Below are positions 28,512-32,184 of a DNA stretch of 64,000 nucleotides, piece after piece. Both the position numbers and the translations under genes were made by a program. The stretch spans positions 558,001-622,000 of the forward strand of contig NC_013799.1 in the NCBI RefSeq assembly GCF_000010785.1, in the 5' to 3' direction. The notes beneath the pieces were generated by a model, which worked only from the letters and a program-made list of their open reading frames with translations, was not told where the DNA came from and did not search any database. How positions within the stretch are numbered: the stretch's first letter is position 1; each line of letters begins with the position of its first letter. The DNA is from Hydrogenobacter thermophilus TK-6 (GTDB lineage Bacteria > Aquificota > Aquificia > Aquificales > Aquificaceae).

Positions 28512-29807
28512 ATGCAAGAAGTAGTTAGGTGGTTCTTACTTGCGGTTCTGTCCTTTATGATAGTAGGAGGAAAGCTTGCCTTAGCGGTTGATACCAGCGC
28601 CATGCTGAAAGCCATGGCAGACCCTGCCGGTGCTCCCTTTTTCCCCGTTGTTATGCAGGTGCTTCAAGTACTCACATGGGCGCTTCACATACTCTTCGTT
28701 TATACCTCAATTGGCGGTCTCTTCTTTGCCATATACGGTTTTACCAGAAGAGATGAAAATTGGCAAAAACTTTCAAGAGCAACTATTGAGCTTTCCAAAG
28801 TTTCCGTATCTTTAGCCATCGTGCTGGGCGTTGCTCCTTTGCTCTTCTATCAGGTCATATATGACCCTCTGTGGTACTCGTCTGCTAACCTTTCCGCTTG
28901 GTGGTACATACTGTTTATAGTATTTCTCCTCATAGGCTACTACTTTATTTGGGGAGCATACCTTACCAAAGATAAACCAACCATCTCCATGTTTATGTCA
29001 ATTCTTGGCATCATCTTCCTGCTTTTGGTGGGCTTTATCATCCATGTGGTAAACTATCAGTCTCTTTACCCTGAGAAGTGGGTAGAGTGGTACACATCAG
29101 GTGGAACAACTATGAACACGAGCGGATGGAACATTTATGCCTTTAACATTTTCAGGTATCTATCCTTCTTAGTGTTTCCTTCAGTGGCTGTCACAGGTAT
29201 ATTCCTCATGCTCTATAACTGGTACTTTAGAAGCAGGGAGGATATGGATAAGGAATACCTTGACTGGGCAGGTAAAGTGGGAGCCAGGTTTGCCCTCTAT
29301 GCTGGCGGTGGCTGGATAGTGGCGCAGGTACTTTACATATTTACAATTCCTGCGGATTGGGGTGCCAAGGGAAGCATCTTTACATGGCTTACTCTTCTTG
29401 GACTTCTTCTCGTTATAGGTGTGGTGTTTGCTGCTCAAAAGAATCCGGCAAAGATGGCTATACCTTCTCTCATCTCTGGAGTTGTTGCGCTCTTGCTTAT
29501 AGCCATCTTCAGAGAGTACTTGAGAGTTGCCTCCACCGCAAGGTTTGGCTACTCGGTATACGATTACAAGATGAACTTAGAGTTCCTGAGTCCATTACTC
29601 TTTTTTGGCACTCTACTGACAGGTCTTGTACTCTACGCATACGCCTGGTGGATGGCTTATAGAGCGGGAAGAACACCCAAAGGTAAAGTTTATGAAGCTT
29701 CCGAAACTGAACACCACCTGGGAGATGCTTCCGTCTTTGTGGTTATCCTCTGGGCTATAGTCTTCATAGGCGTAGGTCTTATAGTGATAGCCAGAAACTA
29801 CGCCTGA
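28512..29807 (+). CDS. Second bd-like membrane subunit, paralogous to the preceding gene
   Basis: 431-residue polytopic membrane protein, about ten hydrophobic segments, N-terminal segment possibly an uncleaved signal. Its second segment LHILFVYTSIGGLFFAIYG parallels IHVMASHTSVGASILLAYL of the preceding gene, so the two subunits are probably duplicates, like the CydAA' pairs described in the bd superfamily. It has no CxxCH. The gene is 13 bp downstream with an AGGAGGTG Shine-Dalgarno and ends just before a strong terminator, so the operon has two genes. A heterodimeric oxidoreductase in the cytoplasmic membrane is the likely product. Confidence 0.58.
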   Translation: MQEVVRWFLLAVLSFMIVGGKLALAVDTSAMLKAMADPAGAPFFPVVMQVLQVLTWALHILFVYTSIGGLFFAIYGFTRRDENWQKLSRATIELSKVSVSLAIVLGVAPLLFYQVIYDPLWYSSANLSAWWYILFIVFLLIGYYFIWGAYLTKDKPTISMFMSILGIIFLLLVGFIIHVVNYQSLYPEKWVEWYTSGGTTMNTSGWNIYAFNIFRYLSFLVFPSVAVTGIFLMLYNWYFRSREDMDKEYLDWAGKVGARFALYAGGGWIVAQVLYIFTIPADWGAKGSIFTWLTLLGLLLVIGVVFAAQKNPAKMAIPSLISGVVALLLIAIFREYLRVASTARFGYSVYDYKMNLEFLSPLLFFGTLLTGLVLYAYAWWMAYRAGRTPKGKVYEASETEHHLGDASVFVVILWAIVFIGVGLIVIARNYA

Positions 29808-29813
29808 CTGAGT

Positions 29814-29840
29814 GCCGGGCTTTTGCCCGGCTACTCTTTT
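29814..29840 (+). terminator. Intrinsic terminator of the bd-like operon
   Basis: GCCGGGC at 29814-29820 pairs with GCCCGGC at 29825-29831 around TTTT, followed by TACTCTTTT. A related hairpin, with a slightly different loop, recurs at about 31335-31360 as part of the direct repeat. Confidence 0.85.
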
Positions 29841-29860
29841 ATGATTATCTTAGCACCGTT
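29823..29860 (+). repeat. Left copy of 38-bp direct repeat flanking the ttuA-rhodanese gene
   Basis: Matches 31343-31380 at 37 of 38 positions (g29843 versus a31363). The right copy is the genuine 3' end of the lytic transglycosylase gene plus its terminator; the left copy encodes the same NGAKIIIKE tail on the minus strand but without a gene in front of it. Confidence 0.9.
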
Positions 29861-29905
29861 GGACTCTCTTTCTCCACGGTCTTTATTCCTTTGAGATTTA
29901 AAGTT
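29832..29905 (-). pseudogene. Decayed 3' fragment of a lytic transglycosylase gene
   Basis: Read on the minus strand, 29861-29905 can be translated as LKGIKTVEKESP, which matches GIKTLKKESQ near the C-terminus of the intact transglycosylase at 31351-32184. After the equivalent of a ~60-bp deletion that also shifts frame, the sequence resumes as NGAKIIIKE and stop, identical to the intact protein's end. So a piece of this gene's tail was duplicated and then decayed. It lies directly before the ttuA-rhodanese gene. Confidence 0.75.
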
Positions 29906-29945
29906 TGTCGCCTTTATAATCTTTACTTACTTATATTTTTTACTT

Positions 29946-31268
29946 ATGGAATTTAGGCTTGACGGCATTGTACACATCAATTACGGTAAATGCGGGATAG
30001 GAAAGATAAACTTAGAGTTAAAGCCTTTGGGTAAGTGTAGTAGGTGCAAGAAAAACGAGGCTATTATAAACCTGGCATACGCAAGACAAAGACTTTGTAA
30101 AGATTGTTTTAACGATTTCTTCGTTAATAGGGTTAGGAGGGTTGTAGAAGAGTTTAGGATGTTTAAACCCGGTGAGAGGGTTGCCGTGGCGGTTTCGGGT
30201 GGTAAGGATAGCGTTGCCCTACTCCACGCCCTAAAAAAGGCCTTTCCAGAACAAGATATATACGCCTTTTACATAAACCTCGGAATAAAATATTACTCGG
30301 ATCACCTTGAAAAGAAGGTGATAGAGCTTGCGGAAATGGTCGGTGTCCCCATAGAGATATACAACTTAAAGGAAAAAGAAGGTTATACCATAGACGATTT
30401 TCTACTAACAAAGTATAAGAACAAGATGTGCTCGGTTTGTGGGTTAATAAAGAGGAATATTTTTACGACACTGGCCGTAAGGGTAAATGCGGATACGGTT
30501 GCAACGGGGCACAACCTTGACGATACCGTTTCAACAATGATGTCTTTATTCTTTGCGGGGGATTTTGAAGGTATAGCGAGGTTAAAACCCGTATTAAAAC
30601 CATTAATAAAGGGACAGCCAAGAAAGATAAAACCCTTAATAACAACCCCAGAAATTGAGGATTTGTATTATGTGGCCTTAAACGAACTTCCGGTTCAGGA
30701 ATGCGGTTGCCCTCATGGGGAATTTACACCGATTAAGGGTATGAAAAAATGGCTTGACGAAATGGAAAAGGAACAACCGGATATAAAATTTAGGCTCCTA
30801 TCCGTATTCAGAAGGAAGTTTATCCCATTGGTGGATAGGGGATTAGGTGAAGAAGGCGTTGAAGAGGTTAGGGCATGTACGGTTTGCGGAATGCCCTCAT
30901 CATCCGAAATATGCTCAAAGTGTAGGAGGGTTATGGAGTTGATGGAAATCAAGGAAAGGAGAGGAGAAATTAAGATGGAAATAACATTTGAGGAGTTGGA
31001 AAGGTTAAGGGAGAAAGAAAGGGTTGTTTTACTTGATGTTAGGGATAGAAAAGAGTACGAGGTTTATACCCTTGAAGGGGCTATAAATATCCCCGCGGAT
31101 GAGATACAGAAAAGGTGGAAAGAACTCTTAAAGTATAAGAGAACGCATAAGGTTGTTGTGTTTTGCAATGCCGGAAGGAGCAGTTATGCCGTGGCGGTGA
31201 AGTTGAGGAATTTGGGTTTTGATGCCTATAGCTTAAAGGGTGGTATAATAAGCCATATTCAACCTTAA
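29946..31268 (+). CDS. ttuA: tRNA 2-thiolation protein TtuA fused to a rhodanese domain
   Basis: 440 residues. TtuA converts m5U54 of tRNA to 2-thioribothymidine, a thermophile modification that stabilises tRNA. Visible are zinc finger 1 (Cys31, 34, 51, 54), the PP-loop SGGKDS at 84-89, Cys162/Cys165 and Cys253 or 255 for the 4Fe-4S cluster, and zinc finger 2 (Cys311, 314, 323, 326). A C-terminal rhodanese (about 345-440) has the active-site Cys407 in CNAGRSS, so sulfur could be handed over within one polypeptide. Leu TTA and Val GTT codons are commoner than in neighbours, and the gene is bracketed by a direct repeat, so it looks inserted. The first ~29 residues are an unusual extension. TATATT lies 8 nt before the ATG. 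Confidence 0.85.
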   Translation: MEFRLDGIVHINYGKCGIGKINLELKPLGKCSRCKKNEAIINLAYARQRLCKDCFNDFFVNRVRRVVEEFRMFKPGERVAVAVSGGKDSVALLHALKKAFPEQDIYAFYINLGIKYYSDHLEKKVIELAEMVGVPIEIYNLKEKEGYTIDDFLLTKYKNKMCSVCGLIKRNIFTTLAVRVNADTVATGHNLDDTVSTMMSLFFAGDFEGIARLKPVLKPLIKGQPRKIKPLITTPEIEDLYYVALNELPVQECGCPHGEFTPIKGMKKWLDEMEKEQPDIKFRLLSVFRRKFIPLVDRGLGEEGVEEVRACTVCGMPSSSEICSKCRRVMELMEIKERRGEIKMEITFEELERLREKERVVLLDVRDRKEYEVYTLEGAINIPADEIQKRWKELLKYKRTHKVVVFCNAGRSSYAVAVKLRNLGFDAYSLKGGIISHIQP

Positions 31269-31280
31269 AATCTCCAACTC

Positions 31281-31322
31281 ATGGAGGAGAGGAAAGAGGC
31301 GGCAAAAAGGTTGGCGAAATAA
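31281..31322 (+). other. 13-codon open frame after ttuA, possible truncated gene start
   Basis: ATG at 31281 opens MEERKEAAKRLAK and stops at 31320. It reads like the beginning of a charged helical protein and may be the broken start of the gene that followed ttuA in its source genome. It may equally be chance. Confidence 0.25.
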
Positions 31323-31342
31323 CTGGTACTTTACGGGCTTGT

Positions 31343-31380
31343 TTGCCCGGCTACTCTTTTATAATTATCTTAGCACCGTT
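31343..31380 (+). repeat. Right copy of 38-bp direct repeat flanking the ttuA-rhodanese gene
   Basis: 37 of 38 bases identical to 29823-29860. It covers the terminator side and the last codons of the intact transglycosylase gene. The two copies enclose about 1.5 kb. Confidence 0.9.
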
Positions 31381-32184
31381 TTCAAGGGTAATAATCCTTT
31401 CTCTTTGACTTCTTTCTACCTTAGATAGCTCTGCATGTGCTGACTGGCTCTCTTTCTTTAGGGTTTTTATCCCTTCGCTAAAAAGCCCGTACTTGACTGG
31501 GTCCCTGGTTATGAGAAGCACCGCAAAAAAAGCAGGCACATAGTTTCTTGTCTCCTCTGGTAGCATGTCCTTAGTTATCCAGAAATCCACACCGGCGGTT
31601 CTGTACTTTACGCAGTTCTCACCGCAGTTATAACCTGCCAGCGCCAGCTCCCAGTTTCCAAACATACTGTAAAGGTCCTTTAGGTACCTGACCGCAGCCT
31701 CCGTGGACTTTATCACATCAAACCTCTCATCCACATGCTCATCCACCCTAAGTCCGTATCTTCTGGCGGTTGAGGGGATAAACTGCCAAAGACCGGCAGC
31801 TCCTGACCTTGACACTGCCAGAGGATTAAAACCACTCTCTATAACAGGAAGAAGCGAAAGTTCCGATGGTAACCCACTTTTTTCAACGATGGGTTTTATG
31901 ATGGGTAGGTAATACTCAGCTCTCTGAAGAGTTTTTTCCAGGTAAGGTTTGTTTTGCAAAAAGTAAGAGATGTATCTTTTTATCTCTTCCCTGTCTGGTA
32001 TGGGGATGTTGAGGTTTTTAGCCTCTTTTACTATAAATCTCTCTTCCTCTTCGGAGAAGGAAAAACTACCCTTCTGAACGAGCTGAATCTTATCCCCACT
32101 CCTTGGCATCACAGCCTGTTTTACCGCCTGAGTGCAAGAAAACAAAGAGCTGCAGATCAATACTGCCCCTATCCCCCTTCTCAT
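31351..32184 (-). CDS. Lipoprotein lytic transglycosylase (SLT domain)
   Basis: 277-residue lipoprotein: the signal peptide ends in the lipobox SLFSC. The SLT domain (about 95-235) has the catalytic Glu in LLPVIESGFNP, then AVSRSGAAGLWQFIPSTARRYGL, YLKDLY..FGNWELALAGYNCGE and RNYVPAFFA, as in MltD/MltC-type enzymes. It cleaves the glycan strand of peptidoglycan, forming 1,6-anhydro-MurNAc ends. MltD proteins usually carry LysM repeats; none is seen here, only a short charged tail ending NGAKIIIKE. That tail is partly duplicated upstream (29832-29905). Confidence 0.88.
   Translation of the reverse strand: MRRGIGAVLICSSLFSCTQAVKQAVMPRSGDKIQLVQKGSFSFSEEEERFIVKEAKNLNIPIPDREEIKRYISYFLQNKPYLEKTLQRAEYYLPIIKPIVEKSGLPSELSLLPVIESGFNPLAVSRSGAAGLWQFIPSTARRYGLRVDEHVDERFDVIKSTEAAVRYLKDLYSMFGNWELALAGYNCGENCVKYRTAGVDFWITKDMLPEETRNYVPAFFAVLLITRDPVKYGLFSEGIKTLKKESQSAHAELSKVERSQRERIITLENGAKIIIKE

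Follow-up and report, generated by a model that had tools for sequence, protein, structure and literature searches.

TtuA, the tRNA-5-methyluridine(54) 2-sulfurtransferase, carries a [4Fe-4S] cluster on three cysteines and activates U54 with ATP; its sulfur source is the thiocarboxylate of TtuB, which is made by the E1-like TtuC, and the rhodanese-like TtuD directs sulfur in upstream (PMC6225789). In bacterial ThiI, the persulfide is carried on a cysteine of the rhodanese domain (PMC5372739). Here, we describe a gene of Hydrogenobacter thermophilus TK-6 in which a TtuA and a rhodanese are joined in one chain, a fusion of which no report was found in the open-access literature searched. The gene lies in a window (the whole stretch of DNA analysed) of 64,000 nt, positions 558,001-622,000 of the 1,743,135-bp complete genome of this member of the Aquificaceae. 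Our reading, to which we give a probability of about two in three, is a replacement across phyla: a TtuA that needs no carrier and is fed by the persulfide of its own rhodanese domain displaced a TtuB-dependent one. The replacement itself is well supported, and the carrier-free chemistry is what we infer.

Table 1. Features at the insertion site, in window coordinates.
Feature	Position	Strand	Evidence
Left neighbour: membrane protein gene that follows a cytochrome bd oxidase subunit I-like gene	28512-29807	+	ORF
Duplicated C-terminal coding end of the transglycosylase, decayed (39-bp repeat and 28-bp match, frameshifted)	29822-29892	-	
Inserted foreign segment	29893-31333	none	Absent from congeners; tetranucleotide distance
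TtuA-rhodanese fusion gene, 440 aa	29946-31268	+	Pfam, NCBIfam, alignment, tree
Right duplicated copy: weakened terminator (31334-31349) and true transglycosylase C-terminus	31334-31475	-	
Lytic transglycosylase (MltD-like SLT), intact	31351-32184	-	Pfam SLT, 104 bits

The inserted segment separates two genes that are convergent at the ancestral site (Table 1). Orthologues of the transglycosylase in three congeners are 77-80% identical, while Pfam support in the left-neighbour pair is weak and concerns only the upstream gene. An earlier note on this DNA had claimed a 38-bp direct repeat (37/38 identical) around about 1.5 kb with one gene. As measured, the repeats (29822-29860 and 31342-31380) are 39 bp long, with 38/39 identical positions (97%) and a spacing of 1520, and the 1.4 kb that they bracket hold the fusion gene alone. 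The right repeat is, as that note had it, the true end of the transglycosylase ORF. The left one belongs to a longer copy of the transglycosylase tail than the 39-bp repeat alone: a further collinear match of 28 bp (82%) pairs 29864-29891 with 31448-31475, and the 3 bp left between the paired matches in the left copy, against 67 bp in the right, amount to a net deletion of 64 bp, where about 60 bp had been claimed. The reverse complement of the left copy reads NGAKIIIKE and a stop in one frame and GIKTVEKES, the decayed GIKT..KES segment of the note, in another, so the copy has been broken by a frameshifting deletion and encodes no continuous tail. The duplicated stretch, terminator included, measures ~140 bp and corresponds in the right copy to 31334-31475 (~142 bp). 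The terminator hairpin, which the convergent genes share, is intact in the left copy (GCCGGGCttttGCCCGGC at 29814-29831, + strand) and weakened by the loss of stem pairs in the right one (CGGGCttgtttGCCCG at 31334-31349). A promoter-like TTGAGA-18-TATAAT (29891-29920, + strand; 11/12 consensus matches) spans the left junction and reads into the inserted gene; it comes from a scan by consensus only, in which 2 sites were found and 3.5 were expected by chance at the threshold used, and it may explain the expression of the fusion gene at its new site.

The closest congener, G004, provides an empty site, by reconstruction. Its contig C35 ends in the orthologous transglycosylase and its contig C2 starts with the same 141 bases, after which C2 continues with the tail, the stop, a terminator with the same hairpin as the left copy (CCGGGCaaaaGCCCGG) and then the left-neighbour orthologue, which thus abuts the transglycosylase tail. 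Joined at this identical overlap, the two contigs would give a site that lacks the insert, the junction crossing a break in the assembly graph instead of being read through. That the break in the G004 assembly coincides with the insertion site, its two sides sharing 141 bases, hints that the site may be variable in the G004 population too. In two other congeners (G001 and G003), the end of the transglycosylase gene is followed without a break by another gene, and there is no fusion. No full match to the interval DNA was found in the congeners, and no relative holds the locus with the insert. A dispersed repeat family, which the earlier note had named as a refutation, was rejected, as a search of the host genome with the whole interval returned no further match to the repeat. 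A 27-bp match on contig C30 of G001 was dismissed as a repeat copy since it lies inside unrelated coding sequence.

The composition of the insert is foreign as well. Its tetranucleotide distance is 0.42, against a mean of 0.26 (sd 0.035), the largest of 556 stretches of 1.44 kb taken from 212 kb of the 1.74-Mb genome, except for one that overlaps the insert. The richer use of TTA and GTT noticed earlier was borne out, as TTA makes up 0.36 of the Leu codons (background, 0.10) and GTT 0.57 of the Val codons (background, 0.24). By chi-square codon distance the fusion gene ranks 5th of 173 and is the only gene of more than 250 codons among the top eight. The proposed check of codons and k-mers was therefore positive for tetranucleotides and chi-square distance and not for a simple mean log codon score, by which the gene does not stand out (rank 73 of 172).

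The protein relatives point to another phylum. The nearest, at 78-79% identity over residues 9-436, comes from a WOR-3 genome (G172), followed by that of Candidatus Caldipriscus sp. T1.2 (G136; 75-80%, frameshifted in its assembly) and by nine further fusions of the same phylum (WOR-3/Caldipriscota) at 53-62%; the ordinary TtuA of Aquificota and WOR-3 reach 28-40% (native Aquificota, ~35%). In a maximum-likelihood tree of the TtuA core, all 11 fusions included form one clade (100/100), set on a long branch from ordinary TtuA, and the window gene is grouped with those of G172 and Caldipriscus (100/100) inside the WOR-3 fusions. No second fusion was found among the 136 Aquificota genomes searched. 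An independent fusion in G088-G090 was considered and rejected, G088 and G090 reading as an ordinary 308-aa TtuA beside other genes. Judging from the tree, the gene is foreign and came from the WOR-3 fusion clade or from a close relative of that clade that has not been sampled, and the vertical TtuA phylogeny named earlier as a refutation was not what the tree returned. Taken with the empty site and the composition, it fits the proposal of an insertion that duplicated the transglycosylase tail, the extra copy of which is decaying. Contact between the two phyla is realistic, as Caldipriscus T1.2 comes from Bechler Spring filaments (PMC12285271), which are Aquificales 'streamer' communities at about 80 C (PMC4791363). 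As a separate observation, two WOR-3 genomes (G188 and G189) have an ordinary TtuA that nests in the Aquificota clade (a 100/100 pair within a 98/96 group), which suggests transfer in the opposite direction, from Aquificota to WOR-3.

The fusion protein combines a TtuA N-terminal LIM-type zinc finger (PF22082, 36 bits, cut-off 27), a PP-loop ATPase with its SGGKDS motif (PF01171, 47 bits) and a C-terminal rhodanese (PF00581, 58 bits), all over the Pfam cut-offs, together with the C-terminal TIGR00269 region (66.5 bits, cut-off 62.75). Its homology to relatives begins at about residue 9. The zinc cysteines are present (31/34/51/54 and, in the C-terminal finger, 311/314/323/326), and Cys162, Cys165 and Cys255, the putative [4Fe-4S] ligands, are invariant in all groups aligned. 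In contrast, Cys16, which lies in the N-terminal extension, and Cys253, which precedes the third cluster cysteine by two residues, are invariant in the fusion clade and missing from ordinary TtuA; Cys407, in the CNAGRSS loop of the rhodanese, is also invariant across the clade. Among NCBIfam models, the TtuA equivalog NF049949 scores best, ahead of NcsA and TtcA, at 209.6 bits, under its cut-off of 450, as are the ordinary Aquificota TtuA (299-320), so that this threshold has no discriminating power here. The best PDB sequence matches are likewise TtuA structures (E 4e-45 and 2e-38). An identity as ThiI was rejected: the THUMP domain and the ThiI PP-loop profile are absent among the Pfam matches, and the WOR-3 fusion genomes have a separate true ThiI. 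An AlphaFold model built from the window and Caldipriscus sequences only (mean pLDDT 50, pTM 0.31) is too poor for the geometry of a cysteine relay.

Elsewhere in the genome, the native genes have gone. In three congeners (G001, G003 and G004), rplT and pheS are followed by ttuB, ttuA and then a convergent membrane-protein gene, and in the fourth (G002) a ThiS-family gene also lies directly upstream of ttuA. The congener ttuB is a ThiS-family gene of ~70 codons that encodes a ubiquitin-like sulfur carrier with a Gly-Gly motif near its end. In all four, TtuB ends in GG and two residues (GGVL, GGVS or GGTL) instead of GG, so that C-terminal trimming before activation may be needed. In H. thermophilus, pheS ends at ~1534564, no more than ~15 bases from the end of the convergent next gene, and both ttuB and ttuA are gone. 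A search of this genome with the congener TtuA matched no more than two proteins, the imported fusion (E 7e-50) and a distantly related PP-loop protein; by the searches used, the fusion is the only TtuA of H. thermophilus. None of its five ThiS-family matches is a TtuB, all being of ThiS-, MoaD- or other type, and three of them have orthologues in G004. A ThiS-family-like protein at 1033354-1033587 (- strand) ends in TAGE, not GG, and has no evident counterpart among the G004 matches. The native pair having been deleted elsewhere in the genome, the insertion amounts to a gene replacement, a swap seen in one species only. In a different genus of the family (g10; G013, G020, G026, G032 and G075), TtuA searches returned only rhodanese matches or no strong match, an apparent loss of TtuA for which those searches found no replacement.

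The sulfur carriers of the WOR-3 genomes bear on the chemistry. A ThiS-family match is present in 2 of 11 fusion genomes (G172 and G191) and a ThiF over the cut-off in 1 of 11, against 10 of 13 genomes with ordinary TtuA for a small ThiS-family protein (a count that takes small open frames only) and 8 of 13 for ThiF, with Fisher p values of about 0.012 (ThiS) and 0.013 (ThiF) that ignore kinship. The ThiS/ThiF pair of G172 sits in a molybdopterin cluster among genes of moeA/moaE type, and in G191 an ordinary TtuA is present besides the fusion. That fusion genomes mostly lack both ThiS and ThiF fits a carrier-independent enzyme, although the correlation is only suggestive because the WOR-3 genomes are mostly incomplete MAGs with common ancestry. 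On contig C87 of G172, a molybdopterin gene cluster encodes an E1-like MoeB/ThiF protein whose C-terminal part looks rhodanese-like. In G172 and G136, the fusion gene directly follows thi4-like and thiC genes, and in most fusion genomes it is not beside thi genes.

Other explanations of the locus were weighed. A duplicated tail alone is no proof of transfer, and the repeat could be the scar of a tandem duplication next to a fusion that dates back to the ancestor of Aquificota and disappeared from the relatives; with no second fusion in the 136 genomes, full support for the WOR-3 nesting and a foreign composition, such vertical inheritance has next to no probability. Hardly more credible is the arrival of the gene by a transposon, an integron or a phage-type insertion. 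Direct repeats that flank a single foreign gene would suit it, but neither an ORF for a transposase or integrase nor strong inverted repeats at the ends occur in the 1.4 kb, and no relative turned up in viral contigs, searched with exact patterns, or in plasmid records, at 80% coverage of the protein. Typical target duplications are far shorter than ~140 bp. This length fits better than transposition either a widely staggered break that was repaired illegitimately or an earlier tandem duplication that received the gene, as far as the sequence tells.

Concerning function, transfer and replacement may be real and the fusion still depend on a carrier, a ThiS- or MoaD-type protein of the host supplying the sulfur and the rhodanese acting upstream in the manner of Thermus TtuD. 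We consider this unlikely, if worth keeping in mind: H. thermophilus retains several carrier-like proteins of the ThiS family and one E1-like ThiF, which might serve the fusion, and Thermus does have a separate rhodanese, TtuD, upstream of TtuB (PMC6225789), but most WOR-3 fusion genomes are without ThiS- and ThiF-family matches, and what the replacement took away was just the dedicated carrier together with the enzyme. Somewhat more doubtful is another main job for the fusion, in supplying sulfur for the thiamine thiazole or at another tRNA site, the loss of ttuBA being coincidental. The thi neighbours in G172 and G136 speak for it, as do the long branch of the fusion clade, the failure to find ordinary TtuA in genus g10 and a paper cited in PMC11417400, which reportedly shows that thiazole synthesis is supported by the rhodanese domain of ThiI. 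However, no TtuA metal or PP-loop residue has been lost, the TtuA model outscores NcsA and TtcA, most fusion genomes have the gene away from thi genes and a true ThiI besides, and a TtuA-type gene is present in precisely the one congener that lost its TtuA.

The replacement by a carrier-independent enzyme would then have proceeded as follows. A TtuA-rhodanese gene of the WOR-3/Caldipriscota type entered between the two convergent genes with the ~140-bp duplication, and its product would now make 2-thiouridine at tRNA position 54. In particular, the rhodanese Cys407 would take a persulfide from a cysteine desulfurase or another sulfane source, and, with Cys253 or Cys16 as possible relays, the sulfur would then go to the [4Fe-4S] cluster (Cys162/165/255) beside the ATP-activated uridine. 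Once the carrier had become superfluous, the two native genes could disappear; gain of the fusion probably preceded the loss of ttuB-ttuA. We lean towards regarding the whole fusion clade as carrier-free iron-sulfur tRNA 2-thiolases, in which a same-chain rhodanese and two relay cysteines replace the TtuB/TtuC route and from which a single transfer into Aquificota made the carrier dispensable. The locus offers an experiment done by nature: a single gene has apparently taken the place of an enzyme and its ubiquitin-like sulfur carrier, which suggests that a sulfur-handling domain within the enzyme can do the work of that carrier. It becomes directly testable whether an iron-sulfur thiolase of the TtuA type requires the thiocarboxylate of a protein or can receive its sulfur from a persulfide, a question on which published sulfur-donor schemes disagree, and gene flow between co-living hot-spring phyla is documented.

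In comparison with known systems, the fusion shares with TtuA of Thermus thermophilus (5b4e/5gha) and Pyrococcus horikoshii (PH0300, 5mko) the zinc fingers, the PP-loop and the three [4Fe-4S] cysteines, and differs in its fused rhodanese, the N-terminal extension with invariant Cys16, the extra Cys253 and the lack of an adjacent ttuB. It resembles bacterial ThiI as a PP-loop thiolase with a C-terminal rhodanese domain, but it has no THUMP domain and bears the TtuA-type zinc and cluster cysteines. Thermus TtuD and the rhodanese domains of yeast Tum1 and Uba4 likewise belong to rhodanese proteins in the sulfur flow to 2-thiouridine (PMC6225789, PMC5372739); those are separate proteins that act before a ubiquitin-like carrier, whereas here the rhodanese is fused to the thiolase. 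The WOR-3/Caldipriscota fusions (G172, G136, G170-G178 and G191) have the same architecture and the same clade-specific cysteines, with 56-78% identity over the full length, and, while in the two nearest of them the gene comes after the thi4-like and thiC genes, that of H. thermophilus stands alone behind the promoter-like sequence of its junction.
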